From Akkermansia muciniphila (GTDB lineage: Bacteria > Verrucomicrobiota > Verrucomicrobiia > Opitutales > Opitutaceae): DNA of 53,615 nt. The translations under genes were made by a program, and so were the position numbers. A model generated the notes under the pieces. It was not told where the DNA came from. It searched no databases and worked only from the letters and a program-made list of their open reading frames with translations. How positions within the stretch are numbered: the first letter of the stretch is position 1; each line of letters begins with the position of its first letter. Where the stretch lies: positions 1-53,615 of the forward strand of contig CAMDHP010000005.1 of the NCBI GenBank assembly GCA_945898185.1, written 5' to 3'. Positions 2,876 to 53,342 of the stretch are shown piece after piece.

Positions 2876-3841
2876 ATGTCGCTCCCTTGGCATCCTTGGC
2901 AACCCGTTCCACCGCTCCCTCACGCCGTAGCCTTCACCCCGTCGTCGCTTGGTGAGCTGCTTGATGGCGGCCAAGCCTTCCGCTGGACCGCCTTGCCCGA
3001 ATCCGCCTTCGAGGGCCAATGGTCCGAACACCATGTCCGGGTCCGCCTCGTGCCCAACGCGAGCAGCACCCTGGAGTTTGCCGCCCCGCTCCACGCCGAT
3101 CCCGCAGCCACCGCCGCCGCTCTCCACTTCTACCTGAGCGGACCGCCCGCCGCGCCCGACGCCCTTCCCTGGCGCAGCGATGCCCACCTCGCCGCCGCCA
3201 TGGCCGCCTTCCCCGGCCTGCGCATCCTCCGCCAACCCTTTGGTGAAACTCTCCTCGGGTTCGTTTGCAGCGCCACAAAACAAATCCCCCAAATCAAACA
3301 GATGCAGGCCCTTCTCGCCGCCCGCCACGGCCGCGCCCTCAACCCCGTCCCCTCCGCCCCTCGAGCATCCAACCGTCCTTCCCAAACAACTAGTCAATCA
3401 TTGATTGACAATATTGTTTTTCATCAACTCCCCACCTGGACCGAGCTCGCCGCCGTGTCCGAAAGCGAATTACGCGCCTGCTCGCTCGGTTTCCGCGCCC
3501 GCCACGTCGCCTCCATCGCTCGCTTCCTCGCCGAAAACCCCGGCTGGCTTGAAGCCACCGAGCACGCCCCCTACCCCGAGGCCAAAGCCCGCCTCATCAC
3601 CCTTCAGGGCGTCGGTGAAAAAGTCGCCGACTGCGTGCTCCTCTTTGGCGCCGGCCGCCTCGAGGCCTTTCCCGTGGACACCTGGATTTTAAAAGCCCTT
3701 GCACGCCGCTACGATCTCGCCGGCTGGGAACCCGCCCAAGTCGCCCACTTCGGCCGCACCCATTTCGGCCCCCAAGCCGGCCTCGCCCAACAATACCTCT
3801 TCGCCTACGAGCGCGCCGCCGCGCGCGGCAAACTAACCTAA
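2876..3841 (+). CDS. 8-oxoguanine DNA glycosylase, OGG type (HhH-GPD)
   Basis: Base-excision repair glycosylase/lyase that removes oxidised guanine. The 321-residue protein has an N-terminal OGG domain (SLGELLDGGQAFRW, about residues 22-35), GLRILRQPFGETLLGFVCSA in the middle, and a helix-hairpin-helix LQGVGEKVADCVLLFGAG. The HhH lysine is residue 249 and the catalytic aspartate of EAFPVDTW is residue 268; these numbers and their spacing match human OGG1 Lys249 and Asp268. ATG 2876 is chosen because the family alignment begins just after it. Between the N-terminal part and LPTWTELAAV, the usual short loop is lengthened by about 20 residues, including TSQSLIDNIV (172-181), which is encoded by a hairpin element (see repeat at 3384). 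Confidence 0.88.
   Translation: MSLPWHPWQPVPPLPHAVAFTPSSLGELLDGGQAFRWTALPESAFEGQWSEHHVRVRLVPNASSTLEFAAPLHADPAATAAALHFYLSGPPAAPDALPWRSDAHLAAAMAAFPGLRILRQPFGETLLGFVCSATKQIPQIKQMQALLAARHGRALNPVPSAPRASNRPSQTTSQSLIDNIVFHQLPTWTELAAVSESELRACSLGFRARHVASIARFLAENPGWLEATEHAPYPEAKARLITLQGVGEKVADCVLLFGAGRLEAFPVDTWILKALARRYDLAGWEPAQVAHFGRTHFGPQAGLAQQYLFAYERAAARGKLT
3384..3420 (+). repeat. Hairpin element with core GTCAATCATTGATTGAC, inside the OGG gene
   Basis: The core at 3393-3409 is flanked by imperfect arms, AAACAACTA on the left and AATATTGTTT on the right. It is read in the frame AGT CAA TCA TTG ATT GAC, giving SQSLID at residues 173-178. The other two sense frames contain TGA. The left arm is nearly identical to the left arm of the copy at 22543. 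Confidence 0.85.
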
Positions 3842-4145
3842 ACCGAATCGGATAGATTACACCGCGGGCACGAGCGGAGGCACCGAGCCCACGAAGCCAA
3901 GTTCACGCCCCTACTCTAATTTTCCTTCATCCGTGTTTATCCGTGAGCATTCGCCGTTACATTTGAGCCGTCTCTTTCGCGTATTTCGTGTAGCGCGTGA
4001 TTAAAAAATTCCGTTTCCCCTCTCCCCGCATCTCTTTCCATTCCTTTTCTCAGTGGCCTCCGTGCGCCCTTCGTGCCCTCTGTGTAACTTCTTCTCCGTC
4101 TCCGCCTACTACGCTTCATCTTGCGCCGCCCCGCGCCTCCCTGCC
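3842..4145. other. Intergenic region with degenerate repeats
   Basis: No gene is seen. The stretch holds fragments of families found elsewhere in the window: ATCCGTGTTTATCCGTG near 3930, TTTCGCGTATTTCGTG near 3976, and TTCGTGCCCTCTGTGTAAC near 4070. No clear promoter or terminator could be assigned. The ispG frame is open back to 4053, but the conserved protein starts only after 4146. Confidence 0.5.
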
Positions 4146-6263
4146 ATGCCTCCGCTCCCCTACACTGCATCCCGTTTCCACACCGTCCGCCGCCGCACCC
4201 GCGAGGTCATGGTAGGCCCCGTCGGCGTCGGCGGCACGAATCCCCTTCGCGTCCAGTCCATGACCACCAGCGACACCCAGGACATCGCTGCCACCGTGCG
4301 GCAGGCCATCGCCCTCGCCGAGGTCGGCTGCGAGATCGTCCGCATCACCGCTCCCAACGTCCAAGCCGCCCGCTGCCTCAAGCCCATCCGCGAGCAATTT
4401 GCCGCCGCCGGCTTTGGCCATATACCGATTATCGCCGATATCCATTTCCTGCCCTCCGCAGCCATGGAGGCCGTGGAGCACGTCGAGAAGATCCGGATCA
4501 ACCCGGGCAACTACGCCGACAAAAAGAAATTCGCGGTCACCGAATACACCGACGCCGCCTACAACGCGGAGCTTGCCCGTATCCACGAGGCCGTGACGCC
4601 GCTTATTCTTCGTTGCAAAGCCCTCGGCCGCAGCGTGCGCATCGGCACCAACCACGGCTCGCTCAGCGACCGCATCATGAACCGCTACGGCGACACTCCT
4701 CTCGGCATGGTGGAGAGCGCCCTCGAGTTCCTCCGAATCTGCCGCGGCCATGGATTTAACGATATCATCCTTTCGATGAAGGCCTCCAACCCCAAGGTCA
4801 TGATCCAGGCCTACCGCCTGCTCGTCGCCCGCATGGACCAGGAGCAGATGGACTATCCCCTCCACCTCGGCGTCACCGAGGCCGGCGACGGCGAGGATGG
4901 CCGCATCAAGTCCGCCATCGGCATCGGCTCCCTGCTCGCCGACGGCCTCGGCGATACCATCCGCGTCTCCCTCACCGAAGACAGCGTTTACGAAATCCCA
5001 GTCGCACAAGCCCTGGCCCGCAAAGCCATGGCTCTTTGGCAGCAACCTACCAATCCATTTTGTCAATCAATGATAGACAAAGTGCAGAAAGAGAACGTCG
5101 TTGAGCGCACCGACTCTATTGATCCGTTTGTTTACGCCAAACGTTCCGTTAACTCGCTCACCATCTCCCCTGATTTCGCCATCGGTCCCGAACTCCCTTC
5201 CCGCGTCGTCACCCGCGTCGCGTCCGTTGCCGCGCTTGCCGAGGCCGCTCAGAAGTTCGCCGCCACCCGCCTCACCGATACCCCGGTTGAAGGACTGCTC
5301 GTCCCCATCGACAACGCCGCCGACCTCGCCGCGCTCAAATCCGCAGCCTTCCCTGCCGGTTCGGTTCCCTTTCTCGATCTCGCCGCCGCGCTGACACCCG
5401 CCGACCTCGCCAGCCTAAATAGCAGTGCGCCCGTTGTGCTGGTGCGAACCTTCGGCTCCTCCCACGTCGACGCCGACGCCCTCGCTGGCTTCGCGAAACT
5501 CGCCCGCGCCAGCGGACACACTCTCGCCCTCGCCACCACGGTCGAGGCGCTCTCCGCGCCCGCCTCACCACTCGCCGCCACCCTTCGTCAACTCGGCGAA
5601 GCGTCGCTTCTCATCACCCTCGACGACGCCGTCCCGGACCCCGCCTTCCGCCACGAGATCGGCCGCTATCGCGCCCTCGCCGATGCCCTCGGCGCCCTCG
5701 GTATCCACGCTCCCCTCTGGATCCGCAGCACCCAATCCGTGCATTCGAGACCGGGCATTCGCCATTGGTCATTATCCGGCACGGCGCCCGCGCCGGATTT
5801 CCTCTCCAGACTGCTCGACGCCTCAGTCCTTTCCGGAGCCTTGCTCTGCGACGGCCTCGGAGACCTCGTGAGCATCGAGACCGAACCCGACCCCGTGCGC
5901 GCGCTCAAGCTCACCTACAACGTCCTTCAAGGCGCCGGCACACGCAGCAGCAAGACGGAGTTCGTCGCCTGCCCGAGCTGCGGCCGCACGCTCTTCGACC
6001 TGCAAACCACGACGCAAAGAATCCGCGCCCGCACCGGACATCTCAAGGGCGTGAAAATCGCCATCATGGGTTGTATCGTGAATGGACCCGGAGAGATGGC
6101 CGACGCCGATTTCGGCTACGTCGGCGGCGCCCCAGCAAAAATCAATCTCTACGTCGGCAAACAGTGCGTTCAATACAACCTTCCCCAAGCCGAAGCCGAC
6201 GAGCACCTCGTCGCCCTCATCAAAGCCCACGGCAAATGGGTCGAGCCGCCGGTCGGCGCGTGA
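4146..6263 (+). CDS. ispG: 4-hydroxy-3-methylbut-2-enyl diphosphate synthase, long form
   Basis: Iron-sulfur enzyme of the MEP isoprenoid pathway that converts MEcPP to HMBPP. The TIM-barrel part starts at about residue 10 (TREVMVGPVGVGGTNPLRVQSMTTSDT). The C-terminal cluster domain carries CPSCGRTLFDLQ and GCIVNGPGEMADADFGYVGG, giving the three cluster cysteines. At 705 residues it is the long type with a central insert domain, as known from plants, Chlamydiae and Bacteroidetes, rather than the roughly 370-residue E. coli type. ATG 4146 fits the family start. Two odd segments lie in variable regions: CQSMIDK (residues 306-312), encoded by a hairpin element, and HSRPGIRHWSLSG, encoded by a heptamer-like repeat at 5742. 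Confidence 0.95.
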   Translation: MPPLPYTASRFHTVRRRTREVMVGPVGVGGTNPLRVQSMTTSDTQDIAATVRQAIALAEVGCEIVRITAPNVQAARCLKPIREQFAAAGFGHIPIIADIHFLPSAAMEAVEHVEKIRINPGNYADKKKFAVTEYTDAAYNAELARIHEAVTPLILRCKALGRSVRIGTNHGSLSDRIMNRYGDTPLGMVESALEFLRICRGHGFNDIILSMKASNPKVMIQAYRLLVARMDQEQMDYPLHLGVTEAGDGEDGRIKSAIGIGSLLADGLGDTIRVSLTEDSVYEIPVAQALARKAMALWQQPTNPFCQSMIDKVQKENVVERTDSIDPFVYAKRSVNSLTISPDFAIGPELPSRVVTRVASVAALAEAAQKFAATRLTDTPVEGLLVPIDNAADLAALKSAAFPAGSVPFLDLAAALTPADLASLNSSAPVVLVRTFGSSHVDADALAGFAKLARASGHTLALATTVEALSAPASPLAATLRQLGEASLLITLDDAVPDPAFRHEIGRYRALADALGALGIHAPLWIRSTQSVHSRPGIRHWSLSGTAPAPDFLSRLLDASVLSGALLCDGLGDLVSIETEPDPVRALKLTYNVLQGAGTRSSKTEFVACPSCGRTLFDLQTTTQRIRARTGHLKGVKIAIMGCIVNGPGEMADADFGYVGGAPAKINLYVGKQCVQYNLPQAEADEHLVALIKAHGKWVEPPVGA
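5055..5085 (-). repeat. Hairpin element inside ispG
   Basis: The sense-strand core GTCAATCAATGATAGAC at 5062-5078 is identical to the sense core in the epimerase gene at 52539-52555. Read on the other strand it fits GTC-TATCATTGATT-GAC. The arms are short and imperfect (CCATTTT against AAAGTGC). It encodes CQSMIDK in the linker between the barrel and the insert domain. Confidence 0.8.
5742..5776 (+). repeat. Degenerate heptamer repeat inside ispG
   Basis: Five consecutive 7-base units, CATTCGA GACCGGG CATTCGC CATTGGT CATTATC, resemble the TCATTCS array at 2781 and the fragment at 2349. The 35 bases are in frame and encode HSRPGIRHWSLS within the insert domain of IspG. Confidence 0.5.
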
Positions 6264-6386
6264 TGCAGTCCCAGGAACGCCTAGCCCCAGCACGGCTCCG
6301 GTCCGCTCGCTGATTTCAGCTTTCAGGTTAGTCCTCCGTTTGCCGGCTCAAAGAACGGGGCATTTCAAAGCCGATTCTGCACGCGC

Positions 6387-8495
6387 TCACGGTGCCAATG
6401 CGTCGAGCACGATGCTAGGCGTGAGAAGTTCGGGGAGAACCTTGGGCTCCGCTGCGCCCGGGATGTAGACGAGGTTGAAGGGGACGGCAGCGCGTTTGAA
6501 GCGGGCGAGCTCGGCGGTGATGAGCGGGTCGCGGTTGGTCCAGTCGCCGCGCAGGGTGGCAACTTTGCGGTCGCGGAAAGTCTTTAACACTTCACCTGAA
6601 CCCGGGCCGTGGAAGATGGCTTTTTTGTTGGTCTGGCAAGTGAAGCACCAGCGGGCGGTAAAATCCACGTAGATGGGGCGACCCTCGGCGCGCAGGGCAG
6701 CTACACGCTCCGCACTCCAGTGCTCCCAGACGATATCGTCGAGCGCTTTTTCCCGGGGCCAGCCATAGACAAAAGCGGCCGCGGCGAGCGCGAGCGAGAC
6801 GGACAACGTGACGCGGCGGGGTTTGGCCGAGGGGGCAGTGGCGTGGCCGTAAAGCCAAAGGGCGAAGGCGAGGCTGGTGAGGGCGAGCACGGCGGTGAGC
6901 AGGCCGTCGGCGTCGAGCTGGCCGGCGAGGATCCAGAGCATCAAGCCGGCAGTGCCGTAGAGCAGGAAGGCCATGCCATGTTTGAGCGTCTCCATCCACA
7001 TCCCGGGGCGGGGCAGGACGCGGAGCGCCGAGGGGAAGGCGGCGAGCACGAGGTAGGGCGTCGAGAGGCCGAGGCCGATGGCGGTAAACACCGCAAAGCT
7101 CGGCAGGGCGGGCAGCGAGAGCGCGGCGCCGAGGGCGGGCGCAAGGAAGGGTGCGCTGCATGGAGTGGCGACGATTGTCGCAAGGACGCCGGTGAAGAAG
7201 GACCCTGCGAGGCCCTGCTTTTGCTGAAGGCCGCCACCGATGGCAGTGGCGCGTAAGGCGAATTCAAATACGCCGGAAAGGTTCAAGGCGAAGGCGAGCA
7301 CGACGGCGGCCAAAGTGAAGACGAACGTAGGATTCTGGAGCTGGAAGCCCCAGCCGAGTTTGTCGCCACCGGCACGAAGAACGGCGAGCACGGCGGCGAG
7401 CACCCAGAAGGAGAGCAGCACGCCGGCGGTGAAGGTGAGGCCGTGAGCGGTGACTTTTTTTCGGTCCGAGCCAGCTTGCTGAACGAAGCCGATGACCTTG
7501 AGACCGAGCACAGGAAAAACGCATGGCATTAGGTTCAAAATGAGGCCGCCTACGAAGGCGAGGAGGAGGAACGGGGCGAGTGGAGCGTCGGCACCGCCTG
7601 CAGCGGAATTACCCATACCCGATGACGAATTTCCACTGGCGGCGGCGGCCGAGATTTCGACGGGGAGGTCGAGCGTGTAGGCGGGGCCGGACGCGAAAGT
7701 AAGCACGCCTTGCAAGCGGGTCGGAGCGGGAATGGCGTAGTCGGAAACAGTCAGGTCGATGACGGTGGTTTCAGGCGAGGCGGCGATGCGGGGCTGGGCT
7801 TGGTCGTAGGCGATGACGGCGTCGGCGGCGAAGAACCACGGTTCGCCGATGGGGGCAGCGGTAGTGTTGTAGTTGAGGCGGATAATTTTTGAGCCTTCGA
7901 AACGGGAGGCGCTAACGACGAACCCCGCCGGTGGCGGGCGGGGAAGGTCAGCGAGGGTTTTGAGCAGGGCCTCGCCCTCAGCGGAGTCGGTGACATTGGC
8001 GGCGATGATCGCACCAGGCGCGGCGGGTGTGAGCGTGATCGATACGTCGGCCGCGCCGGGCACGCAGACATCTTTGCACATGAGCCACTCGGCTTTGGCG
8101 CGGAGCGTAACGGGCGTGCCGGCGGCCAGACCGCGCGGCGGGGTAAGGGTGACGGGAAGGTAGATGACGCCCTCGTAGCCGTTGCCGGAGAGGTTTTTGG
8201 CGGTGTCGTAAACGCGGTAGGGTGTCGGCCACTGGATGGGTTCGGCGGTCCAGCCTGGGGGGAGATCCCAAGCGAGGGTGGTTGGCAGTCCGGTGCCGGG
8301 TTCGCGCCAGTAAGTGTGCCAATGCGGAGCATGAGTGAGACGCAGGCCGACGACGACGGGGGCATCGGAGTGGAATGAGTTTTTGAGGGCGACGAGCGAG
8401 GCCTCAACCTGGGCGCGAACGGCGGACGCGAGGGGGCAGACCGCCACGAGAACGAGTATCAGAAAACGGAGGGGACGGACGAGAGCGGCAAACAT
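6387..8495 (-). CDS. Thiol:disulfide interchange protein, DsbD family
   Basis: Inner-membrane protein that carries reducing power from the cytosol to the periplasm. The 702 residues hold a signal peptide; an N-terminal periplasmic domain (about 30-270) with cysteines 140 and 144 in WLMCKDVCVPG; and a polytopic DsbD/CcdA domain (about 310-560), with LNLMPCVFPVLGLK and ATPCSAPFLAPALG supplying the membrane cysteine pair. A C-terminal thioredoxin-like domain has the motif WCFTCQTNKKAIF. Length and domain order match the DsbD group that carries the PF11412-type N-terminus. It is convergent with ispG. A small membrane-protein gene lies upstream on the same strand, about 85 bp away. Confidence 0.92.
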   Translation of the reverse strand: MFAALVRPLRFLILVLVAVCPLASAVRAQVEASLVALKNSFHSDAPVVVGLRLTHAPHWHTYWREPGTGLPTTLAWDLPPGWTAEPIQWPTPYRVYDTAKNLSGNGYEGVIYLPVTLTPPRGLAAGTPVTLRAKAEWLMCKDVCVPGAADVSITLTPAAPGAIIAANVTDSAEGEALLKTLADLPRPPPAGFVVSASRFEGSKIIRLNYNTTAAPIGEPWFFAADAVIAYDQAQPRIAASPETTVIDLTVSDYAIPAPTRLQGVLTFASGPAYTLDLPVEISAAAASGNSSSGMGNSAAGGADAPLAPFLLLAFVGGLILNLMPCVFPVLGLKVIGFVQQAGSDRKKVTAHGLTFTAGVLLSFWVLAAVLAVLRAGGDKLGWGFQLQNPTFVFTLAAVVLAFALNLSGVFEFALRATAIGGGLQQKQGLAGSFFTGVLATIVATPCSAPFLAPALGAALSLPALPSFAVFTAIGLGLSTPYLVLAAFPSALRVLPRPGMWMETLKHGMAFLLYGTAGLMLWILAGQLDADGLLTAVLALTSLAFALWLYGHATAPSAKPRRVTLSVSLALAAAAFVYGWPREKALDDIVWEHWSAERVAALRAEGRPIYVDFTARWCFTCQTNKKAIFHGPGSGEVLKTFRDRKVATLRGDWTNRDPLITAELARFKRAAVPFNLVYIPGAAEPKVLPELLTPSIVLDALAP

Positions 8496-8579
8496 GGGCG
8501 GAAGCTTAGGTTAATAAGCGGGGCGGGGAAAGGCTCGGCTGACGAAAGCTCTGGCGGCACGGCGCGCGAGAATGATTTT

Positions 8580-9278
8580 TCACGGCGCCGGCCGGCGGGT
8601 GATGGTCGCAAGAAGAAGGGTGAAAAAGCAGAGAACAATATTCTGCATGGGGAGCTGGAGGGCGGTGGGCAGCAGATAGATGATGGCGACGGCGGGAGTC
8701 CAGATGCCCCAGTTGGCGATGAGAATGGGGAGCACGCAGCGGGCGTAGAACCCCGGGCGGCGAACCTCACGCACGACGGGGGCGGAGTCGAAGCGGTGCT
8801 CTGCCCACGTATAGACCAGCCACGTGACCGGGATCGCGACGACCGGGCAATAGACGTATTGATCGACGAGGGTTTTTAAAATGATCGTGGTCGCAGAGTG
8901 GCCCTCGCCGAAGAGCCAGGCTTGAAACTTATAGAAACAGGAAACTTCGACGCCCTTGTAAGCCCAGAAAGCGGTGATGAGCGCCATCTGCGGGAAGGCG
9001 TAGCGGCTTCGAGTAGAGGCGCGCAGTTTTAGCACCAGAAAAGGGATGACCGCGCCGAAGAGCGCAGTGGAAACCGCATCAAAAGGCGCGCCGATTTCCA
9101 CGCGAAACGTGGCGAGCCGTTCCAGCGCGGTGCGGGAAGGAGAATGCGCGTAATAAGCGGACAGCAAACCGAGGGCAAAAACCTGAAGGCAAATGCCGGG
9201 GACAAGGTTGGCGCGCGCCCCGGCGAGACCCAGCCGCCAAGGGGAGATGGACGAGGCTTGGGTGGCGGGCGAGGACAT
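8580..9278 (-). CDS. Integral membrane protein, distantly Mpv17/PMP22-like
   Basis: A 232-residue protein with about five hydrophobic helices. The segment ILKTLVDQYVYCPVVAIPVTWLVYTWAEHRF and the later ILIANWGIWTPAVAIIYLLPTALQLPMQNI resemble the Lys-x3-Asp-Gln-x3-x-Pro and W-x2-W-P-x2-Q patterns of the eukaryotic Mpv17/PMP22 channel-like family. That is recall-based similarity, not an alignment. ATG 9278 is chosen; a TTG at 9293 is an alternative start. It is probably in the inner membrane. Function is unknown. Confidence 0.6.
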   Translation of the reverse strand: MSSPATQASSISPWRLGLAGARANLVPGICLQVFALGLLSAYYAHSPSRTALERLATFRVEIGAPFDAVSTALFGAVIPFLVLKLRASTRSRYAFPQMALITAFWAYKGVEVSCFYKFQAWLFGEGHSATTIILKTLVDQYVYCPVVAIPVTWLVYTWAEHRFDSAPVVREVRRPGFYARCVLPILIANWGIWTPAVAIIYLLPTALQLPMQNIVLCFFTLLLATITRRPAP

Positions 9279-9391
9279 GAAAAAAGACTGCAAGGCTCTG
9301 GCACGAAGCGGGCAATGTCGAACGGCGATTAAATTTCAAAAAGAGGTGGAGCCCCGCGCGGCTGCCGTGTTGGGTTAAACGCAAAGAACCG

Positions 9392-10708
9392 ATGACCGCA
9401 TTCCGGGAAAAAACGCCGCGCCCTATTTTTGCAGATATTCGCGCTGAAAGTCTGCGCGGGCGGGCCGGTTTTTTCCGGGTCGGGCAGGCTGCGAACGGGA
9501 GTTGGTGGCTACTCACGCCCGAGGATGAGCCCGTGCTGTTGCGCGCAGTTGCCGGAGTAAACCGTCACGGACGCGCGGGGCCGGCTCCGGTTTTGCGTAG
9601 CGCCTACGCCCGCACCGTGGAGCGACTCTACGGACCCGGCTCGGAGGCATGGGAACGCAGCACGGCCACGCGGCTGCATTCCTGGGGCGTGGATACGGTG
9701 GGACCCTGGGCTGACGGTGGGCTGGTGGAGAAGGGATTTTACTTCACGGCCCAGGCGGATTTCTCCCGTGCGCGGGTGGCGCTGATCCACGGGCCGGGAG
9801 TGCGTTTGCCGGATGTATTCGACACGCTATGGCCGGCGGCGGCGGAGGCTCATGCGGCGGCGGTGACCGCGCCCTGGGCGGGACGGCGCGAGCTGGTGGG
9901 CTGGTTCACCGATGATGCACTCGGCTGGGGGGCGGCGGAAGACGCGGGTGGGCCGACCCTGCTGCAAGTTTGCCTGAGTTTGGAGCCGGCGCTGGCAGCG
10001 CACCACGCAGCGTGGGAGTTCGTGCTGGCGGGGCACGGCGGCGGCGCCTCGCCGGAGATAATTGGAAAGGCTTGGGGAATACCGCTCCAACATCGTCAAC
10101 ATATGCGGCAGTGGACCCGCGAAGGGCGGGCGGTGGGCGGGGCGGTCTTCGCCGAGGATGCGCTGCGTTTCGCGAAGGAAGCGGCGCGCCGGTATTTTCA
10201 TGTAATAGGTGCAGCACTACGCCGGCATGATCAGGAGCACCTCGTGCTCGGGTGCAGGTTCGCAACGCCGCCGCCGGAGGGCGTGCGTCTGTCGGCGGGC
10301 TGGCCGGATATGGACGTCGCCTCATGGCGGCTCCACGCGGGCGGTTTCCAAGCGCAGGCGGCGGCAGGCTCGGGCGAAGGTAACGCTATGCCGCAGTGGG
10401 TGACGGGCGGCGGCTTGAGTCACGGCGACTTTCGCGCGCTGCCGGTGCGCGACGGCACCGGGCCGACGCGGCTTGAGCGTCTGTTGCGCGCGGGACGCGA
10501 AGGGCTGGTGTCCGCGTGCCGCGATCCGCGCACGGTTGGCATCGAGTGGGCGCACTGGGCGGATGGCACAGACGACGCGCCGCCCTTCGGATCAGGGCTG
10601 GTGCACGCCGACGACCACGAAGCGGTGGAGCACACCGAGTTGTTGGGTCATGTGCATGCGCGTGCAGGGGCGTTGCACGCGGCGGGGCCACTTCGCTCGG
10701 ACACGTAG
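9392..10708 (+). CDS. Glycosidase-like protein (GH50/agarase-like), function unproven
   Basis: A 438-residue protein without an evident signal peptide. Features seen: FFRVGQAANGSWWLLTPEDEPVLLRAVAGVN at about 28-58, a pattern common at the start of agarase-like catalytic domains; HSWGVDTVGPWAD near 95; GWFTDDALGWG near 170; and RYFHVIGAALRRHDQEHLVLGCRF near 270, which resembles the family pattern preceding the acid/base region. This suggests a TIM-barrel glycoside hydrolase, perhaps GH50-like, acting on an algal or plant polymer or oligosaccharide. Catalytic residues could not be assigned with confidence. It stands alone on the plus strand, divergent from the membrane-protein gene. Confidence 0.5.
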   Translation: MTAFREKTPRPIFADIRAESLRGRAGFFRVGQAANGSWWLLTPEDEPVLLRAVAGVNRHGRAGPAPVLRSAYARTVERLYGPGSEAWERSTATRLHSWGVDTVGPWADGGLVEKGFYFTAQADFSRARVALIHGPGVRLPDVFDTLWPAAAEAHAAAVTAPWAGRRELVGWFTDDALGWGAAEDAGGPTLLQVCLSLEPALAAHHAAWEFVLAGHGGGASPEIIGKAWGIPLQHRQHMRQWTREGRAVGGAVFAEDALRFAKEAARRYFHVIGAALRRHDQEHLVLGCRFATPPPEGVRLSAGWPDMDVASWRLHAGGFQAQAAAGSGEGNAMPQWVTGGGLSHGDFRALPVRDGTGPTRLERLLRAGREGLVSACRDPRTVGIEWAHWADGTDDAPPFGSGLVHADDHEAVEHTELLGHVHARAGALHAAGPLRSDT

Positions 10709-10838
10709 CGCGTCCTCGATCCCCAACTGTCGCCGCGCCGAAACGAACAATCCCCTCAGGACGCCGAGCTTCTGCCGGTAGACGGAAAGGGGGCTCGCCG
10801 AGGACCCCGCGGCGCCACACACTCCCGTCTTTGAATTT

Positions 10839-11390: not shown

Positions 11391-11492
11391 TTAGCCGCCA
11401 TCCCGAAAAGCGAAAAGCGGAAAGCGAGCGAACGCGGAGGGCGCGAGAGAGGAAGACGGAAGGTGAATGCGTGATTCAGCGGGGTTGAAGAT

Positions 11493-22542: not shown

Positions 22543-22583
22543 CCAAGGCAACTAGTCAATCATTGATTGACTAGTTGCCTTGG
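22543..22583. repeat. Perfect 41-bp palindrome, intergenic copy of the hairpin element
   Basis: Arms of 15 bp, CCAAGGCAACTAGTC and GACTAGTTGCCTTGG, flank the 11-base centre AATCATTGATT, whose five outer bases also pair. A further TGCCTTGG at 22523-22530 can pair with the same left arm, so two mutually exclusive hairpins are possible in the leader of the HTH gene. The core is shared with copies at 3384, 5055 and 52529. Confidence 0.9.
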
Positions 22584-46225: not shown

Positions 46226-48180
46226 AGCCCGCCGCATCTTTCTCCCGCCGCGATCCCGATGATCCCAGCGACACACGCCGCCCCGCCACTTTGCGCCAAG
46301 GCCTTCCCGCCGGCCCGCTCACCGTCGTGCAACGGCCAAGCGACGAGGAGGAGGACGTCGCGCAACGTCCGCTCGAATGGGGCCTAATACGCCGCCTTCT
46401 CGCCTACACCCGCCCACACGCCGCACGCCGGAACTGGCTCATTGTCCTCACCTTCCTCCGCGCCATCCAGCTCAACGGTCTCACTTGGCTTTTCAGCTCC
46501 GCCATCGCCGGCCCCGTCACCCGCGGCGATACGCAGGGACTCTGGTGGGCCGTCGCCGGCTACGGTGCGCTCGCCCTCGTCACCGAGATGATGTTCCACT
46601 TCCGGATGCGCTTTGCCCAGGAGCTGGGAGAGAGTGTCGTGCACCGCCTGCGCGCGGAGCTCTTTGCAAACCTGCAACGGCAGCCGATGGCCTTTTTCCA
46701 CCAGACCAAACTCGGACGCATTCTGGGCCGTCTCACGTCCGACGCCGAAGCCCTGCGCGCCGGTATCCAGGATGTCCTCTTCGCCTCCATCGTTCAGTTC
46801 GGGCAGATGGCCGGGGCAGCGATCATCATGCTCTGGACCGATCCAGTCATGTTCTTGGTGGTGCTCGGGCTGGCACCCGTCATCTGGATCGTAAACCGGC
46901 GCTTCCGCGGACGGCTCTCTTACTACTCTCGAGCCAGCCAGGAGAGTTTTAGCCGCGTGACCGCCAATCTGGCCGAATCAGTCAACGGCATCCGCGTCAC
47001 CCAGGGCTTTGTCCGCGAGGAAACCAACGCCGGTCTCTTTCGCCGCCTGCTCGCCGACCACTCAAGGAACAATCTCAACCTCGCCCGCGCCTCCGCCACC
47101 CTCAACCCCATCCTCGAGCTCAACAGCCAGTTCTTCATCGCCGCCCTTCTTCTGCTCGGCGGCTGGCGCGTTCTCCACGGCGACATGGCAATCGGAGAAC
47201 TCATCACCTTTTTCTTTTTCGCCAACTTGTTCTTCCATCCCATTACCGTATTGGGAAATCAATACAACCAGGCTCTCATCGCCATGGCCGGGGCCGAGCG
47301 CGTCTTCCGTCTTATTGATCGCAAGCCCGAGTGGAGCGATGCGCCCGGCGCCGCCGACCTGCCCGACCCGCGCCAGCCTGCGGTTCCGTCCTCTTCACTT
47401 TTCGCTTTAGATTCGGTGGCTTCCACGCCGCCTCCAGCGCCGCCCGGCGTGGACCTTGAGTTCCGAGATGTTTCCTTCAGCTACGTGCCCGGCCAGCCCG
47501 TGCTCAAAGGCGTGAATTTTCACGCCCGCCCCGGTCAAACTATCGCGCTGGTCGGCCACACCGGCAGCGGCAAGAGCTCCATCATCAACCTCGCCACCAA
47601 ATTCTACCTGCCCGACTCCGGCGAGGTGTTGGTGGACGGCCGCGAGATCCGGACCCTCGCCGGACGCTCCCTGCATCGCCAGCTCGGCCTCGTCACCCAG
47701 CAAAATTTTCTCTTCAGCGGCACTATCCTCGAAAATCTCCGCTTCGCCCGGCCCGAGGCCACCGAGGTCGAAGTGCGCGCCGCCCTCGCCGCTTTGGGTT
47801 GCGCCGACCTGCCCAATGCCCTGCCCAACGGGCTCTCAACCGAAGTAGGCGAACGCGGCGGCGGCCTTTCCATTGGCCAGCGCCAGCTCGTGTGCTTCGC
47901 CCGCGCCTGGCTCGCCGATCCGCGCCTCGTCATCTTGGACGAGGCCACCAGCGCAATAGATTCCCTGACCGAGGCCCGCCTGCAAGAGGCGCTGGCCCGC
48001 CTCTTGCGCGGCCGCACCAGCCTCGTCGTCGCCCACCGCCTGAGCACCATTCGATCAGCCGATCTCGTCCTCGTGCTTGATCGCGGATGTATCGTCGAGC
48101 GCGGCACCCACGACGAACTCCTTGCCCGGCGCGGGTCCTACGCCGCCCTCCATGCCAGCTTCGCCAGGGATAATTCGTAG
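46222..48180 (+). CDS. ABC exporter half-transporter with canonical Walker B
   Basis: 652-residue partner of the preceding subunit. A polar N-terminal extension of about 55 residues precedes six membrane helices, and a Pro/Ser-rich linker (about 370-410) precedes the ATPase domain. Walker A GHTGSGKSSIIN is near 443 and Walker B VILDEATSAID has the catalytic Glu. The signature is LSIGQRQLVCFARA, not canonical LSGGQ. The complementary deviations in the two subunits match asymmetric heterodimeric exporters such as TM287/288, with one active and one degenerate site. Confidence 0.93.
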   Translation: MKPAASFSRRDPDDPSDTRRPATLRQGLPAGPLTVVQRPSDEEEDVAQRPLEWGLIRRLLAYTRPHAARRNWLIVLTFLRAIQLNGLTWLFSSAIAGPVTRGDTQGLWWAVAGYGALALVTEMMFHFRMRFAQELGESVVHRLRAELFANLQRQPMAFFHQTKLGRILGRLTSDAEALRAGIQDVLFASIVQFGQMAGAAIIMLWTDPVMFLVVLGLAPVIWIVNRRFRGRLSYYSRASQESFSRVTANLAESVNGIRVTQGFVREETNAGLFRRLLADHSRNNLNLARASATLNPILELNSQFFIAALLLLGGWRVLHGDMAIGELITFFFFANLFFHPITVLGNQYNQALIAMAGAERVFRLIDRKPEWSDAPGAADLPDPRQPAVPSSSLFALDSVASTPPPAPPGVDLEFRDVSFSYVPGQPVLKGVNFHARPGQTIALVGHTGSGKSSIINLATKFYLPDSGEVLVDGREIRTLAGRSLHRQLGLVTQQNFLFSGTILENLRFARPEATEVEVRAALAALGCADLPNALPNGLSTEVGERGGGLSIGQRQLVCFARAWLADPRLVILDEATSAIDSLTEARLQEALARLLRGRTSLVVAHRLSTIRSADLVLVLDRGCIVERGTHDELLARRGSYAALHASFARDNS

Positions 48181-48194
48181 TTGATTCTAACTAC
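48177..48194. repeat. GTAGTT palindrome at the ABC operon end
   Basis: GTAGTT-GATTCT-AACTAC; the TAG stop codon of the second ABC gene lies inside the left arm. Similar to the palindrome at 39482. It may end the transcript, but no T-run follows. Confidence 0.55.
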
Positions 48195-48326
48195 AAAGAA
48201 CTCTTGTCCCGCGCAACTCTCGCGCCGCGCGCACGCAAGTCTTTATTTCTACCTATGAGACGCCGTGATTTACCTCGTGAAATTGCGGTTGCCTTCATCT
48301 GACACAGCTTTACGCCTCTAGTCGCT

Positions 48327-48611
48327 ATGGCTACCAAAACTACCAAACCCGCCAAACGTAAACCTAACGCGGCATTCATGAAACCGGTTCAACCTGATGA
48401 CGTCCTCTCGGCCGTCGTTGGTGCGAAACCTCTCCCCCGCACGGAGCTCACCAAGAAACTCTGGGAATACATCAAGAAGAACGGTCTTCAGGACAAGAAG
48501 GTCCGCACCCAGATCAACGCTGACGACAAGCTCAAGGCTGTCTTCGGTGGCAAAAAGTCTGTCACCATGTTCGAGATGACCAAGCTCGTCTCCGGACACG
48601 TTAAGAAGTAG
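48327..48611 (+). CDS. SWIB/MDM2-domain protein
   Basis: A 94-residue protein that is almost only a SWIB domain: MKPVQPDDVLSAVVGAKPLPRTELTKKLWEYIKKNGLQDKKVRTQINADDKLKAVFGGKKSVTMFEMTKLVSGHVKK. The basic N-terminus (TKTTKPAKRKPN) suggests nucleic acid binding. Small stand-alone SWIB proteins are known in Chlamydiae and Verrucomicrobia, where the domain may have a chromatin-like role; that is inference. A strong terminator follows 37 bp after the stop. Confidence 0.92.
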   Translation: MATKTTKPAKRKPNAAFMKPVQPDDVLSAVVGAKPLPRTELTKKLWEYIKKNGLQDKKVRTQINADDKLKAVFGGKKSVTMFEMTKLVSGHVKK

Positions 48612-48647
48612 GTCTCGTCTTAGTTGTCCCCAGAACCCGTCTCCTTC

Positions 48648-48682
48648 AAGCCGCCGTCGCCTCGTGCGACGGCGGCTTTTTT
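48648..48682 (+). terminator. Rho-independent terminator after the SWIB gene
   Basis: The stem AAGCCGCCGTCGC / GCGACGGCGGCTT (13 bp, perfect) has the loop CTCGT and is followed by Ts. One of the clearest terminators in the window. Confidence 0.95.
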
Positions 48683-48773
48683 ATACCCCAGGAACTCCTG
48701 CGACCGGGACATAAAAAACCAGCCGTTTCGAACCGGGCGCGTAAGACTGTTCCACCTAACCGTGCGGAACGAC

Positions 48774-49289
48774 TCAACCTCCCTGCGTCGCGAGGAACTT
48801 CATAATATCGTCCGCCTGCTGCTTGGTGGAGCCTTTGTGGTCCGCATAGACGATCTTTCCTCCTTCGATTAGGAAGGCCTGGCGGCTGGAAAAGCCGAAG
48901 GTCGAGCCCACTCCGAATGCCTTCAGCACAGCCTTCTCCGTATCGGCCAGAAGAGTGAACGGAAACTTATACTTGGTTTTGAAATCGGCCTGCGCCTTCA
49001 CCGAATCAGTGCTCACGCCGACGATCGCCACCCCTTTCTGGGTCAGGACCTCGTAGGAATCGCGCAGCGAACAGCCCTGGGCGGTGCAACCAGGCGTATC
49101 GGCTTTGGGGTAGAAATAGACCAGCGTGTATTTCTGCTTTGAATACATATCGGCCAAATCAACGGGCACGCCGGCCTCGCTGAGGGCGGCGACTTTGGGA
49201 GCGGCGGAGCCCACAGCAAGGGGCTCGGAGGCGGAGGAGAAGGAGATCATTGAGGTGAAGAGCAGGGCCAGCAGGGCAAAACGTTTCAT
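48774..49289 (-). CDS. Exported peroxiredoxin, Bcp/PrxQ type
   Basis: Thiol peroxidase of the AhpC/TSA superfamily, 171 residues from 49289. A signal peptide (MKRFALLALLFTSMISFSSA) suggests export, which is less usual for Bcp. The peroxidatic Cys is in FYPKADTPGCTAQGCSLRDSYEVL near 67, with a second Cys five residues later as resolving Cys (PrxQ pattern). VAIVGVSTDSVKAQADFKTKYKFPFTLLAD follows. The frame extends upstream to 49349, but the signal peptide begins at 49289. Confidence 0.9.
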   Translation of the reverse strand: MKRFALLALLFTSMISFSSASEPLAVGSAAPKVAALSEAGVPVDLADMYSKQKYTLVYFYPKADTPGCTAQGCSLRDSYEVLTQKGVAIVGVSTDSVKAQADFKTKYKFPFTLLADTEKAVLKAFGVGSTFGFSSRQAFLIEGGKIVYADHKGSTKQQADDIMKFLATQGG

Positions 49290-49416
49290 GTGGGTTGGTG
49301 TGATAAAATTTACTGCGCTCAAGCTTATACACCAGACTTTCGGGCGCAAGAGGACCGGCCGGTATTACGACTTCGCGCTCCGGAAAAAATCCGCCTACCT
49401 TAAGTGCTCATCTCCC

Positions 49417-50238
49417 ATGCGCCTCATCCGCCATCTCACCGCCGCCGGCCCCGCTTACGCCTCTTTGCTTCCCGACGGCACCGCCCTGCCGTTCGCTGGC
49501 GAGCTCTTCACTCCCGGAGGACTCCAGGCGACCGGCCTGCCTCCGCTCCGCCCCGGCAAATTTCTGGCCCCGGTGTCACCGTGCGCGATCTTTGCCATCG
49601 GACTCAACTACCGCCGCCACGCCGAGGAGGTCGGCCGACCCCTCCCAGTCCACCCGATGATCTTCATGAAACCCGCGAGCGCGGTGCAGAATCCCGGAGA
49701 CTCCATACTCCTGCCCCGCACTCTTCGCAGCGACGAGGTGGACTACGAGGGCGAGCTCGCGGTCGTCATTGGTCGCACCTGTAAAAACGTGCGCCGTGAA
49801 CACGCCCTCGAGCACGTGCTCGGTTACACCATTGCCAATGATGTCTCCGCTCGCGACTGGCAGCATCGCTTCGGCGGCGGCCAGTTTTGCCAAGGTAAAA
49901 GCTTCGACACCTTTTGCCCGCTTGGCCCTGTGCTCGTAACCGCCGACGAGGTGCCCGATCCCGGCCGCCTCGCGCTGAGGACTTTCGTTAACGGCGAGCT
50001 CCGGCAGGACTCCTCGACCAGCGACCTCATCTTCGATGTGCCCGCCCTCATCGCCTTCCTCAGCGCGAGCAAGACCCTCCTCGCCGGCACCGTCATCCTG
50101 ACCGGCACTCCCTCCGGCGTCGGCGCCGCCGCCAAGCCGCCGCGCTTCCTCCAGCCTGGCGACACCGTCTCGATCGAGATCGAGTCGCTCGGAACCTTGA
50201 CTAATCCGGTCGCCGCCGAGTCCACAGAAGGCGCTTAA
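49417..50238 (+). CDS. Fumarylacetoacetate hydrolase-family protein
   Basis: 273-residue FAH/2-keto-4-pentenoate hydratase-like enzyme. AIGLNYRRHAEEVGRPLPVHPMIFMKPASAVQNPGDSI near 60 is the catalytic N-block. DEVDYEGELAVVIGR near 107 gives the metal ligands Glu-x-Glu, and the third acid is in NDVSARDWQ near 142. GTPSGVGAA near 230 is the C-terminal motif. Likely an acylpyruvase or ketodicarboxylate hydrolase. ATG 49417 is preferred to the long upstream open frame. The amidase gene follows 15 bp downstream. Confidence 0.9.
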   Translation: MRLIRHLTAAGPAYASLLPDGTALPFAGELFTPGGLQATGLPPLRPGKFLAPVSPCAIFAIGLNYRRHAEEVGRPLPVHPMIFMKPASAVQNPGDSILLPRTLRSDEVDYEGELAVVIGRTCKNVRREHALEHVLGYTIANDVSARDWQHRFGGGQFCQGKSFDTFCPLGPVLVTADEVPDPGRLALRTFVNGELRQDSSTSDLIFDVPALIAFLSASKTLLAGTVILTGTPSGVGAAAKPPRFLQPGDTVSIEIESLGTLTNPVAAESTEGA

Positions 50239-50253
50239 ATTTTTTCTCCTCTC

Positions 50254-51552
50254 ATGACCTTCGCCGACTGGAAATCCCTCTCGCCTGCCACCGCCGCCCA
50301 CCTCCTCCACCAACGCGTCGCCTCACTTCCGCCTGCACAACAACGCGCCGCCGTCGCCACCCTCGCATCAGAGTCAGACCTCGCGTCCGCCATCGCAGCC
50401 GCTCCGTGCGACGCTCCGCTCGCCGGAATACCATTCGCCGCCAAAGACCTTTTCGATGCCGCCGGTCTGCCCACTTTCGCAGGCTCCCTATTTTTACCCG
50501 AAGCCCGCACCGAACACTTGCCCTCGCTAGTCGCGCCGGCTGACGGAGCCTTCATTGCTGATCTTCGAGTCGCTGGCGCGGCGCTCGCCGCCAAGACTCA
50601 CCTACACGAATTCGCCTACGGTCTCACTGGGGAAAACTCCCACTACGGCGACTGCGATCACCCGCTCTTCCCCGGTCGCACCAGCGGCGGCTCCAGCAGT
50701 GGTTCAGCCGCGCTGGTCGCGGCCGGCGTCGTGCCGCTCGCACTCGCCTCCGACACAGGCGGCTCGATCCGCGTGCCCGCCGCTTTCTGCGGTCTCTACG
50801 GATTCCGCCTCATCCCCCATCATCGTTGGGTTGCCGACGCTGTAATGCTTGCCCCGAGCTTCGACACGCCGGGCTTCTTCACCTCCACCGCCACCGATAT
50901 GGGCGCAACGCTCGACGCGCTCGTGCCCGTTGAAGCGGGGAACCCCAAAGCCCATTCGCCAAATCCCAACGGTGAACGCGCTCCTCGTGGCGCCTACCTC
51001 CCCCTGCCCGGCCTCGACCCCGAGGTCGCAAACGCCTTCACCGCCGCCGCTTCGCGCCTCGCCGAGCCGCTTGCCCCCGCGCTCGCGGCAGAGCTGACCT
51101 CGCTCTTCGCTCCCGCCGCCGAGCTCTACGCCATCATCGGCGGACACGAAACCTGGGCAATCCATGCCCCGTGGTTCGAGCATTATCATGATCGCTACGA
51201 CCCGGGCGTCCGCGCCCGAATCGAGCGCGCCAGCACCATCACAGCGGCGCAACTCGCACCCGCGCTCGCTCATCGCATAAAAATTCGCGCCGCTTGGGCT
51301 GCGCTCTTTCGCGATTACGATTTCATCGTGCTGCCTTCGAGTCCGTGCCCGGCGCTGACCAAGGCCGACTGCACCCTCGCCAACCGGAACCGCATCCTCT
51401 CACTCACCGCGCCCGCCAGTATGGCCGACCTGCCCGTCCTGGCGCTTCCTGTCCAGATACCGGACACAGGCGGCCTCACGACCGGCCTTCAAGTAATTGC
51501 GCCAACGGTTTCGAACCCCGCCTTCCGCCACGCCCTAGCCCTTCATGGCTGA
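50254..51552 (+). CDS. Amidase signature-family hydrolase
   Basis: 432-residue amidase with the Ser-cis-Ser-Lys triad: Lys64 in [11 protein letters not shown], the cis-Ser in [18 protein letters not shown] (about 147), and the nucleophile Ser171 in [17 protein letters not shown]. Amide substrate unknown; the family includes AtzF, GatA-like and indoleacetamide hydrolases. It lies directly after the FAH-family gene, so the pair may form a degradation operon. Its 3' end overlaps the convergent VUT transporter by 18 bp. Confidence 0.9.
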
Positions 51553-52089
51553 TGCCCGCATTACTTTTGCCGGCGGCTTCAAGAGGCCTGCCCGCACCAA
51601 AAGCATCCGGTAGGGCGCGAGCAGCAGCACGGCCATAAAGAGCTTCACCGCGAGGTCGCCAGTCGCGAGTGCAAGCCAGTTCAAATGCTCGCCCGCAAAA
51701 GCCAGAGAGAAGAATATCGCGGTATCAAGCACCGAGGCGGCAATCGAGCCGATGAAAGGTGCCTTCCACCAGACCTTTTGTCGCAGTTTATTGAATACAG
51801 CAATGTCCATGAACTGCGAAGCGAGAAATGCTGCCGCCGAGGCGAGCGCGATCCGCGGCGGCGCCAGCATCAAGGAAAGCGCGAGGCCGGTGACGAATCC
51901 GACCCACGCCATCTGGCGCGCACGTGCGACGCCAGCCCGGCGATTGGCGACATCGGTCACAAAGTAGGCGACCGGGTAGGTGAATGCGCCCCAGGTCAGC
52001 CACGTGTTCAGTGGAAACTGCACGAGGTAATTCGAGAGCGCGACGATGCCCGCCATGGCGAGCGCGGAGAGCAGGAAGGAACGGTTCAT
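51535..52089 (-). CDS. VUT-family queuosine precursor transporter (YhhQ-like)
   Basis: Inner-membrane transporter of about six helices, 184 residues. NRSFLLSALAMAGIVALSNYLVQFPLNTWLTWGAFTYPVAYFVTDVANRRAG at 2-53 contains the family core of the vitamin-uptake (VUT) group, and QFMDIAVFNKLRQKVWWKAPFIGSIAASVLDTAIFFSLAF near 92-130 carries the conserved charged and aromatic residues. By family it brings in queuosine precursors. It overlaps the upstream epimerase gene by four bases and is probably cotranscribed with it. Confidence 0.9.
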   Translation of the reverse strand: MNRSFLLSALAMAGIVALSNYLVQFPLNTWLTWGAFTYPVAYFVTDVANRRAGVARARQMAWVGFVTGLALSLMLAPPRIALASAAAFLASQFMDIAVFNKLRQKVWWKAPFIGSIAASVLDTAIFFSLAFAGEHLNWLALATGDLAVKLFMAVLLLAPYRMLLVRAGLLKPPAKVMRASAMKG

Positions 52090-53342
52090 GGGCGTGGCTT
52101 GGCGGCGGAGCGCGACTTCAGGGCGGCGATAAGTTCCGCGGTCCCGGTAGCCATGCTGATGCGCGGCACGTAGCCCAGATCGCGCTGGGCGGCGGTGATG
52201 TTGAACCAGTGATCCTTGGCGAGCTCGGCGGCGATGAAGCGCGTCATGGGCGGCTCATCGGCACGGCGGAGGATTGCCCAAGTCGCTTCGCAGACGGCGC
52301 CGAGCGCGCAGGCGGCGCCAGAGGGCACGCGGAAGGACGGAAGTGGCGGGCGATCGAGCGCGCGCAAGAGATCATCAATCCATTGCCAGAGGCTGATGGG
52401 TTCACCGTTGGTGATGAAGTAGGCGCGACCAGCGGCGGGGCCGGCAGCTTGATCTGCACCGCCACCAACAGCTTGTTCGGCAGCCCCACTTGTAGCCCCA
52501 CTTGTAGCCCCACCTGCAGCCGAACCAACCAAGCTCTTGTCTATCATTGATTGACAAGAGCTTGGGGCGACAATTTCCGAAGAAGTGTCCATCGTGGATA
52601 GACTGGTTGTATTGATGGATGAGGGCAGGAGGGGCAGAAGAGCCTGTTCGGCGAGGAGGTGGGCGTCGGCGGCGTTTTCGACGTGGACCATATCCACCAG
52701 ATTTTGCCCCCCGCCAACGATACGCAGGCGGCCGGCAGCGGCACGCGCGAGGATGCGCGGCACCAGATGCGGATCGCCGACGCCCCAGATAAGATGCGGG
52801 CGCAGCGCGCATGTGGCGAAGCCTGGGACGTTGGCAGCAAGCACCTCCCGCTCGGCGAGTGCCTTCGTGAGCGGATACGGACTAGGGCACGAGGCCGTGA
52901 GCGGCAGCGATTCATCGGCGCCCGAAAGCGGCAGGCCGTTGTAAACCACGCTCGGAGTGCTGGTGTAAACAAAGCGCCTCACGCCAGCGGCACGGGCAGC
53001 AGCAAGAAGGGTGCGGGTAGCGGCGACGTTATCCTGAAAAAAATCAGTGTATCGCCCCCACACACCCACGCGGGCGGCGACGTGAAAAACCGTTTCAACG
53101 CCACGCACCGCCTCGGCGCAGGTGGCGGGGTCAGCGAGCGAGCCGACGACGATGCGCAAGCCCCGCGCGGCTAGGGCGGGTTGGGGCGTGCGGGACACAA
53201 CGGTCACGGTTCGGCCAGCGGCCAGCAAACGAGTAAGGATATGGCCGCCAAGGAATCCGGTAGCGCCGGTGACCAAAGCCGGGCCTCGATCACTGGTGTG
53301 CCGAGCCGCGGAGTCGGAGGCTGCCTTCAGGATTTGGTTCAT
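52086..53342 (-). CDS. NAD-dependent epimerase/3-beta-HSD-like protein with repeat insert
   Basis: 418-residue extended SDR. GPALVTGATGFLGGHILTRLLAAGRTVT near 21 is the NAD-binding motif. YTSTPSVVYNG and SPYPLTKALAERE near 130-160 carry the Tyr-x3-Lys pair. DMVHVENAADAHLLAEQALLPLL near 213 is normally followed closely by GRAYFITNGEPISLW. Here about 65 residues are inserted between them, including CQSMIDK (from a hairpin element) and an Ala/Gly/Ser/Thr-rich run from a 12-bp tandem repeat. The rest of the fold is complete. Probably a sterol- or sugar-modifying SDR. Confidence 0.88.
   Translation of the reverse strand: MNQILKAASDSAARHTSDRGPALVTGATGFLGGHILTRLLAAGRTVTVVSRTPQPALAARGLRIVVGSLADPATCAEAVRGVETVFHVAARVGVWGRYTDFFQDNVAATRTLLAAARAAGVRRFVYTSTPSVVYNGLPLSGADESLPLTASCPSPYPLTKALAEREVLAANVPGFATCALRPHLIWGVGDPHLVPRILARAAAGRLRIVGGGQNLVDMVHVENAADAHLLAEQALLPLLPSSINTTSLSTMDTSSEIVAPSSCQSMIDKSLVGSAAGGATSGATSGAAEQAVGGGADQAAGPAAGRAYFITNGEPISLWQWIDDLLRALDRPPLPSFRVPSGAACALGAVCEATWAILRRADEPPMTRFIAAELAKDHWFNITAAQRDLGYVPRISMATGTAELIAALKSRSAAKPRP
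52481..52516. repeat. 12-bp tandem repeat inside the epimerase gene
   Basis: Three units, CAGCCCCACTTG, TAGCCCCACTTG and TAGCCCCACCTG, are read on the minus strand as AGGATSGATSGA-type peptide. They lie 13 bp from the hairpin element at 52529 and within the same protein insert. Confidence 0.85.
52529..52565 (+). repeat. Hairpin element inside the epimerase gene
   Basis: Perfect 13-bp arms CCAAGCTCTTGTC and GACAAGAGCTTGG enclose the 11-base loop TATCATTGATT. On the gene strand the core GTCAATCAATGATAGAC is identical to the ispG copy and is read as CQSMIDK. The other two sense frames contain a stop codon. Confidence 0.9.

Follow-up and report, generated by a model that had tools for sequence, protein, structure and literature searches.

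The window, by which we mean the whole analysed stretch of 53,615 nt, carries four copies and one decayed copy of a dispersed palindrome, here called family A. These 39-bp hairpins are probably non-autonomous selfish elements that are spread in trans and work like the Rickettsia palindromic elements; they would have no function for the host. The four sites named in the initial annotation are all present (Table 1), and three of the four copies lie inside open reading frames and in frame. A search of the window with GTCWATCATTGATTGAC at up to three mismatches gave 8 strand-matches (4 places), while 100 shuffles gave a mean of 0.05 and a maximum of 1. The genome of the window has 18 places at up to two mismatches and the reversed-pattern control had none, so the proposal of a dispersed palindrome family stands far over chance. 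In a motif-free palindrome search over 418 kb of this genome, this core alone recurred at least three times.

Table 1. Family A copies in the window and the open reading frames that hold them
Feature	Position	Core	Strand	Reading
Copy 1, family A, 39 bp	3382..3420	3393-3409	+	in frame as TTSQSLIDN in OGG/AlkA-like DNA glycosylase ORF
Host ORF of copy 1, 372 aa	2723..3841		+	Pfam HhH-GPD and OGG_N, each under the curated cut-off
Copy 2, family A	5051..5089	5062-5078	-	in frame as CQSMIDK within ispG
Host ORF of copy 2, 736 aa	4053..6263		+	GcpE/IspG
Copy 3, family A	22543..22583	22555-22571	+	41-bp perfect palindrome; not called coding; one compensated arm pair distinguishes it from the G003 copy at the equivalent place
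Copy 4, family A	52528..52566	52539-52555	+	in frame as CQSMIDK (minus strand) in NAD-dependent epimerase/3-beta-HSD-like gene
Copy 5, decayed		52587..52603	+	core GTCCATCGTGGATAGAC; 48 bp from copy 4, in the same ORF
Host ORF of copies 4 and 5, 418 aa	52086..53342		-	NAD-dependent epimerase/3-beta-HSD-like

The unit consists of a 17-bp palindromic core, GTCAATCA-T-TGATTGAC, between two 11-base arms. Its length of 39 bp follows from the pairing of the arms, which in 80 copies reaches 11 positions past the core and none beyond. The core is conserved and much more constant than the arms, which vary among copies yet pair with each other; the best copy folds into a 19-bp stem with a 3-base loop. 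The centre that the initial annotation had described as an 11-base loop is indeed conserved, but its 11 bases are palindromic and mostly paired. Covariation of the arms, claimed from the copies of the window, extends across the 80 copies: 480 of 880 arm positions were paired, against 383 (sd 15) in shuffles and a value reached by 0 of 20,000 shuffles, and double-changed cells numbered 134 against 77.3 (sd 7.8). Two of five covariation measures gave no excess over shuffles, and arm pairing in the genome G010 alone was not significant (838 of 5,000 shuffles match it). The arm statistics refer to these 80 copies, the frame count given below to 81, which include L013 at a contig edge; the 80-copy set omits four listed places of G001 and three of G003, the latter read subsequently as L132, L455 and L457. 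In alignment A1 each orthologous group is represented by a single copy with at most one core mismatch, which gives 55 rows.

Inside genes the placement of the hairpin is restricted. The core has a single stop-free frame, N-GT CAA TCA NTG ATT GAC, translated as x-QS[ML]ID, and 40 of the 48 copies flanked by coding sequence use it (P 1e-12), the other 8 lying outside it. TAG as the codon after the core was found in 0 of 43 coding copies, whereas among the other copies it stood at 18 of 74 ends, and this avoidance of stops is accompanied by unequal arms. The initial annotation missed both the in-frame insertion and the stop avoidance. About half of the copies, 43 of 80, are situated where a reading frame stays open over 230 codons or more. 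Pfam matches were obtained for 28 of 30 scanned host ORFs, many of them housekeeping enzymes, and the affected genes, among them ispG, hemF, mnmA and gcvP, are unrelated in function. The insert sites are loops that vary between relatives; compared with solved homologues, the inserts amount to 32 residues opposite 3 in HemF and 40 opposite 7 in MnmA. Selection on the encoded peptide was considered and rejected: in 42 coding copies core changes numbered 13 at the 252 third positions and 14 at the 420 first and second positions. Because this difference is small and copies outside genes retain the same core, conservation of the core looks to act at the DNA level.

The distribution of the family is patchy. 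Within the genus, 4 of 15 genomes carry family A; elsewhere it is at background level. More than one exact copy of the core was present in only three of 84,980 species genomes, a set that possibly does not include the window's own genome, and no Rickettsia record with the exact core was listed in the same scan. A viral origin was rejected, as IMG/VR gave 8 single matches that were treated as background, and no Rfam RNA family matched the window above its gathering score. The initial annotation had also missed that other Opitutaceae contain related palindrome families with other cores; the core types in the Opitutaceae comprise GTCAATCATTGATTGAC, GTAACCNANTNGGTTAC and GTCACCAATCTGGTGAC, besides one more around GTTCGTAATACGAAC. 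The Verrucomicrobia that carry such in-frame palindromes include one with a complete genome, IMCC26134.

Relatives without the element and relatives with a different element were both observed at the same loops. Flanks were queried at 14 loci, of which 10 were aligned with relatives, and at least 4 of the 14 held a different palindrome in the same loop of another species, a figure that is a lower bound. The ispG loop of copy 2 contains a family A copy in G010 and a family C palindrome in G008, and the loop of the gene hosting copies 4 and 5 contains a family B palindrome in G006. Elsewhere relatives lack the core at the same loop; for copy 1, the 12 aligned relatives had other or shorter sequence and the core was found in none of them.

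Many copies of the window's genome are also present in G003 and are therefore old; we argue that the case for recent movement rests mainly on G001, the genome richest in copies. In G003 the epimerase/3-beta-HSD-like gene likewise holds two copies 48 bp apart. No insertion junction with a target-site duplication was readable in the aligned loci. The loops there are hypervariable, and empty loops of DNA ligase fall short of the occupied one by only some 15 bp. The search for a clean empty site in close species revealed a decayed copy in the sister species in three of four aligned regions; the fourth, L098, aligned too poorly. For L009 neither G003 nor G010 gave a full match, and L099 matched only itself. 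Since no clean insertion junction was found, movement of the hairpins by transposition is inferred. Purifying selection on the core of old copies was not concluded, because the contrast between core and flanks is confounded by the way most copies were found; among the four pairs in which the flanks alone had led to the partner, 11 of 68 core positions differ.

For these selfish hairpins, a putative trans-acting machinery would recognise the core, and the arms would need only to pair. Insertions into genes would survive only at places where the protein can accommodate some 13 additional residues, namely in a variable loop or linker, and then only if the frame leaves the core free of stops. Copies would then be inherited and erode with time. 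Very small mobile hairpins are also represented by the small dispersed repeats of cyanobacteria. The Rickettsia palindromic elements are described as inserted in frame, with an open frame and in several families, into unrelated conserved protein genes, at a length of 105-150 bp (PMC2229807, PMC10969869). The likeness drawn in the initial annotation is borne out by in-frame, open-frame insertion into unrelated host genes and by the several families; length, core and host, here Opitutaceae, are different. Bacterial MITEs such as RUP, Correia/NEMIS and ERIC are likewise small non-autonomous repeats that are sometimes fused in frame, but they usually measure 100-200 bp with terminal inverted repeats, and several have target duplications (PMC2229807). 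The present hairpins are palindromic and small too; no target duplication was seen in the aligned loci.

Mobilisation as REP or REPIN elements by RAYT (Y1 HUH) transposases, suggested in the initial annotation as a possible link, is unlikely, yet it is the strongest of the other explanations. Of the 15 genomes of the genus, 14 have RAYT-like genes (PF01797). Opitutus terrae, of the same family Opitutaceae, is described with many GTAG REPs, many of them intragenic, e.g., in uvrA, DNA ligase and RNA helicases (PMC3733652). Family B palindromes of other genera (G017, G224, G230) are often paired at 44-54 bp and thereby resemble REP dimers; family A is mostly single, the exceptions being a close pair in G003, 48 bp apart, and the decayed one in the window. 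REPs with GTAG or CGTC tags are 20-40 bp stem-loops with compensated stem changes, and the CGTC repeats are described without transposase association (PMC3733652). Family A shares with them the short stem-loop, the compensated changes, the intragenic position and, with the CGTC repeats, the lack of a transposase link, but its stem has 18-19 bp versus mostly 6-9 and there is no tag excess: in the 80 copies, GTAG/CGTC showed no higher frequency at offsets 8-18 from the core than at offsets 20-30 or 28-38, and where the core's own GTC and the preceding base make up CGTC/TGTC, this is not at the hairpin end. A partnership with RAYT genes is not supported. They occur in carriers and non-carriers of family A alike, PF01797 was not found in G001 (assembly 79 % complete), and 20 loci examined among 35 matches had no core of family A, B or C within about 1.5 kb. 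REPIN/RAYT systems also comprise non-autonomous short palindromes of species-specific types that are spread in trans; in one well-studied genome, however, REPs adjoin RAYT genes and only 14 of 1,067 16-mers overlap genes (PMC3116915), unlike the hairpins described here.

Considerably less probable is a host-functional signal under selection, i.e. a protein-binding site or RNA signal such as an operator, an attenuator or a chromosome-organising site. The steadiness of the core relative to the arms would agree with it, as would compensated changes at one site in two species: L005/L059 have 10 unchanged pairs and one double change, and L055/L044 have 8 unchanged pairs and three double changes. 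Against it, about half of the copies lie inside ORFs of unrelated function, family A is missing from 11 of the 15 genus genomes, and the arms of coding copies erode (5.0 of 11 positions paired versus 7.1 in others). Numerous shared copies, moreover, have unpaired arms or changed cores. Template switching, by which quasi-palindromes already in place are corrected to equal arms, would produce compensated double changes at fixed sites as well, and the perfection of palindromes by this process is discussed in PMC6649704. Alone, it leaves the dispersal to unrelated genes and the species-specific cores unexplained, and many old shared copies remain unpaired; as the sole cause it is very improbable, but it may well act together with the spread of selfish hairpins. 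Mitochondrial byp hairpins are transcribed but not translated, so their frame is free; that ribosomes skip the intragenic elements of family A in the same way would suit their location inside genes, but skipped inserts need no frame, and such bypass is practically ruled out by the frame restriction and the avoidance of TAG, as judged from DNA alone.

In-frame REPs have already been reported in Opitutus terrae, which belongs to the same family, hence the kind of element is not new. A more far-reaching reading, which we put forward tentatively, is that the ultra-short coding hairpins of the Opitutaceae form an undescribed class, in which the 17-base core, the part that would be recognised, may serve as an exchangeable recognition code, each species may expand a core of its own, the arms may be rewritten as matched pairs in each round of copying and the same loops may be entered repeatedly by different families. 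Descriptions of in-frame palindromes have so far centred mainly on Rickettsia; the Verrucomicrobia add a comparable case, with units that are shorter and fall into several families. As the same loops hold different core families in related species, both the movement of the hairpins and the acceptance of inserts by these loops are testable with close strains.

The hairpin element (family A), which the initial annotation had reported at four sites, is present there as described: GTCWATCATTGATTGAC with at most 3 mismatches was found at 4 places (8 strand-matches) in the window, against a mean of 0.05 in shuffled sequence. The excess extends over the whole genome of origin (G000; 2.26 Mb, 132 contigs, of which the window is C5): allowing 2 mismatches gave 18 places, against no match of the reversed pattern. 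In a motif-free search for palindromes with arms of at least 8, recurrence being defined as three or more places, the family-A core was the sole recurrent core in 418 kb of G000 (6 places); no core recurred in 400 kb of the IMCC26134 complete genome (G010), and only one, GC-rich and at 3 places, in 400 kb of G009. The distribution within the genus is patchy. Beside G000, family A occurred in G001 (37 forward and 38 reverse matches), G003 (17 and 18) and G010 (10 and 8), thus in 4 of 15 genomes, and was detected in none of the other 11; the reversed control gave no match in all 15. Eight of 42 relatives outside the genus had one to three matches, which are background, since a similar number of these genomes (7) had reversed-control matches. 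A scan for the exact core in one genome per species (84,980) yielded 78 stretches: 26 in D1_MAG_00083 (G001), 11 in E1_MAG_00038 (G003) and 3 in IMCC26134, together 40 in three species, while the other 38 were singles elsewhere. A stretch of approximately 76 bp rich in GGCTGGGTGGCT, repeated at 97-100% identity, is another dispersed repeat of G000 (see table).

The core is an 8+1+8 palindrome. Among 80 copies from four genomes, arm pairing exceeded the expectation up to 11 positions outside the core and no further, thus the unit comprises 39 bp. The proposed covariation of the arms was supported: sequences vary among copies, yet 480 of 880 pairs were Watson-Crick, against 383 (sd 15) after shuffling of right arms within each genome, and none of 20,000 shuffles reached this value. 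When each orthologous group was reduced to a single copy, 358 of 649 positions paired against 281 (sd 13), again with no shuffle of 20,000 as high. The excess was clear in G000, G001 and G003 (reached by 1, 1 and 12 of 5,000 shuffles, respectively), but not in G010 (838 of 5,000). In an alignment of 55 rows, double-sided changes were seen in 134 cells against 77.3 (sd 7.8) in shuffles, and the covariation score was 0.248 against 0.135 (sd 0.011), dropping to 0.116 or less when the structure was slid by 1 to 3 columns; two of five measures, pairs with double change and further pair types, were not above shuffles. A covariance model made from this alignment, which its members match by construction, found 10 places in 418 kb of G000; taking the better strand, E was under 1e-7 at nine of them and 0.11 at one. 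The 400 kb searched in each of G010 and G009 gave 2 places and none, respectively.

Many copies reside within genes. Each strand of the core can be read without a stop in one frame (N-GT CAA TCA NTG ATT GAC), the other two containing a TGA. A codon model was trained on the window and applied to 81 copies (the additional one, L013, lies at a contig edge). At a threshold of 0.2, 48 of them were flanked left and right by coding sequence in one and the same frame, and in 40 of these the core used the stop-free frame (P = 1e-12 against one third); at the stricter threshold of 0.4 it was 29 of 32. Around 43 of the 80 copies an open stretch of at least 230 codons was present, and these copies encode, with few exceptions, x-QS[ML]ID or a peptide very like it. 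None of the 43 had a TAG directly after the core, whereas among the other 37 copies, whose two ends were counted separately, it was present at 18 of the 74 ends (P = 1e-4). Unequal arms (..CTA / AA..) were frequent among coding copies, which had a mean of 5.0 arm pairs of 11 against 7.1 in the others; 10 or 11 positions were paired in 3 of 43 and 14 of 37, respectively. Of 30 host reading frames scanned, including some genes counted in two species, 28 had a Pfam match at E 0.001, among them IspG, HemF, MnmA, gyrase/topoisomerase IV A subunit, GcvP, DNA ligase, PfkB, a chorismate-binding enzyme, an RNB-domain RNase, and a SpoU methylase. For the glycosylase that hosts copy 1, all matches fell below the curated cut-offs. 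In HemF the insert is part of a 32-residue stretch lying opposite 3 residues of chain 8t7w (PDB), and in MnmA of a 40-residue stretch opposite 7 residues of 2hma.

Many copies are common to G000 and G003, some also to G010 or G001. Across 13 G000-G003 pairs, 20 of 221 core positions differed, a value biased low because most copies were found via the core, 79 of 286 in the arms and 732 of 3439 in the flanks. Arm changes were compensated with no broken pair in L005/L059 (window 22543-22583), where 10 pairs had stayed as they were and 1 had a double change, and in L055/L044, where these numbers were 8 and 3; elsewhere, most shared sites had partly unpaired arms. G001 presents another picture: it has 27 exact cores, few of its copies are common with other species among the loci compared (L070, L086, L091, L092), and its arm type ATC..GAT is palindromic and stop-free at once. 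Our reading is that the family is old and eroding in the window's lineage, and that its expansion in G001 is more recent.

Relatives have other palindromes of the same construction. Family B (GTGTAACCAATTTGGTTACAC, within 3 mismatches) occurred in 10 of 15 genus genomes; its form GTAACCNANTNGGTTAC was found in 14 of the 35 genomes belonging to the bacterial family, against none of the 238 from elsewhere in the order, while the reversed control had single places in 3 genomes. B' (GTCACCAATCTGGTGAC) had 39 strand-matches in G012, 24 in G013 and 7 in G008, none in the other 12 genus genomes, and C (ATGTTCGTAATACGAACAT) was found in G008 (14), G013 (3) and G012 (2), with one weak match in G001. 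Several family-B copies are likewise in frame within long reading frames. G017 has 17 places, some paired 44-45 bp apart; pairs at 44-54 bp were seen at L397 and L400 (G017), L402-L405 (G224) and L407 (G230), some with both members in one reading frame. At L160, near position 145, a family-B core lies inside a near-perfect palindrome of approximately 80 bp; this is either a hairpin of great length or an artefact of assembly close to a contig end. When the flanks of 14 family-A loci (8 + 6) were searched through the genus, at least 4 had another family in the same loop of another species (see table); the remaining relatives had short or unrelated sequence. Short tandem repeats, e.g., AAATCCTAAATCC and TCAGGTCTCAGGTC, can stand in place of palindromes in the loops of IspG (L146, G003), DNA ligase (L372, G008) and GcvP (L369/L373, G003/G000).

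Loops with exchanged palindromes and positions of other repeated features (G, genome; C with number, contig; L, locus)
Feature	Family A	Other palindrome	Position
IspG loop	G000, G010	C in G008	
Epimerase loop	G000, G003	B in G006	
DEAD-box helicase loop	G001	B types in G008, G012, G000 (degenerate)	
PfkB loop	G001	B' in G013	
GGCTGGGTGGCT-rich repeat (G000)			C27 near 5960-6037 (right flank of L009); C11:25528-25603; C102:5730-5805
Three Y1_Tnp matches (L185, L197; G010)			C1:723729-725730

The suggested link to a RAYT/Y1 transposase was not supported: RAYT-like genes gave 35 matches in 14 of 15 genus genomes, and no core lay within approximately 1.5 kb of the 20 of them examined. Three such matches in G010, of equal score and 836 bp apart, are apparently a tandem triplication. 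At L201 (G013) and L202 (G012), one type of GC-rich hairpin (CGACGGGGC..GCCCCGTCG and relatives), unrelated to family A, flanks a RAYT-like gene on both sides, arranged as in a REPtron. No junction with target duplication was readable at family-A loci. The occupied loop of DNA ligase is just approximately 15 bp longer than empty loops, thus this loop either lost sequence as well or was altered in some other way.

The likeness to Rickettsia palindromic elements holds, as family A behaves in the same way as described for them in two reports (PMC2229807, PMC10969869). GTAG REPs, many inside genes, have been reported from Opitutus terrae of the same bacterial family (PMC3733652), thus in-frame palindromes in Opitutaceae are in principle already known; a search of open-licence papers turned up nothing on the family-A core, on where it occurs, on how it avoids stops or on different families taking each other's place in a given loop. 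Dispersed, patchy, paired in its arms and kept in frame, family A most likely represents non-autonomous mobile hairpins. We infer their movement and an enzyme for it; machinery working in trans would recognise the core, and copies in genes would persist only where reading frame and protein permit.
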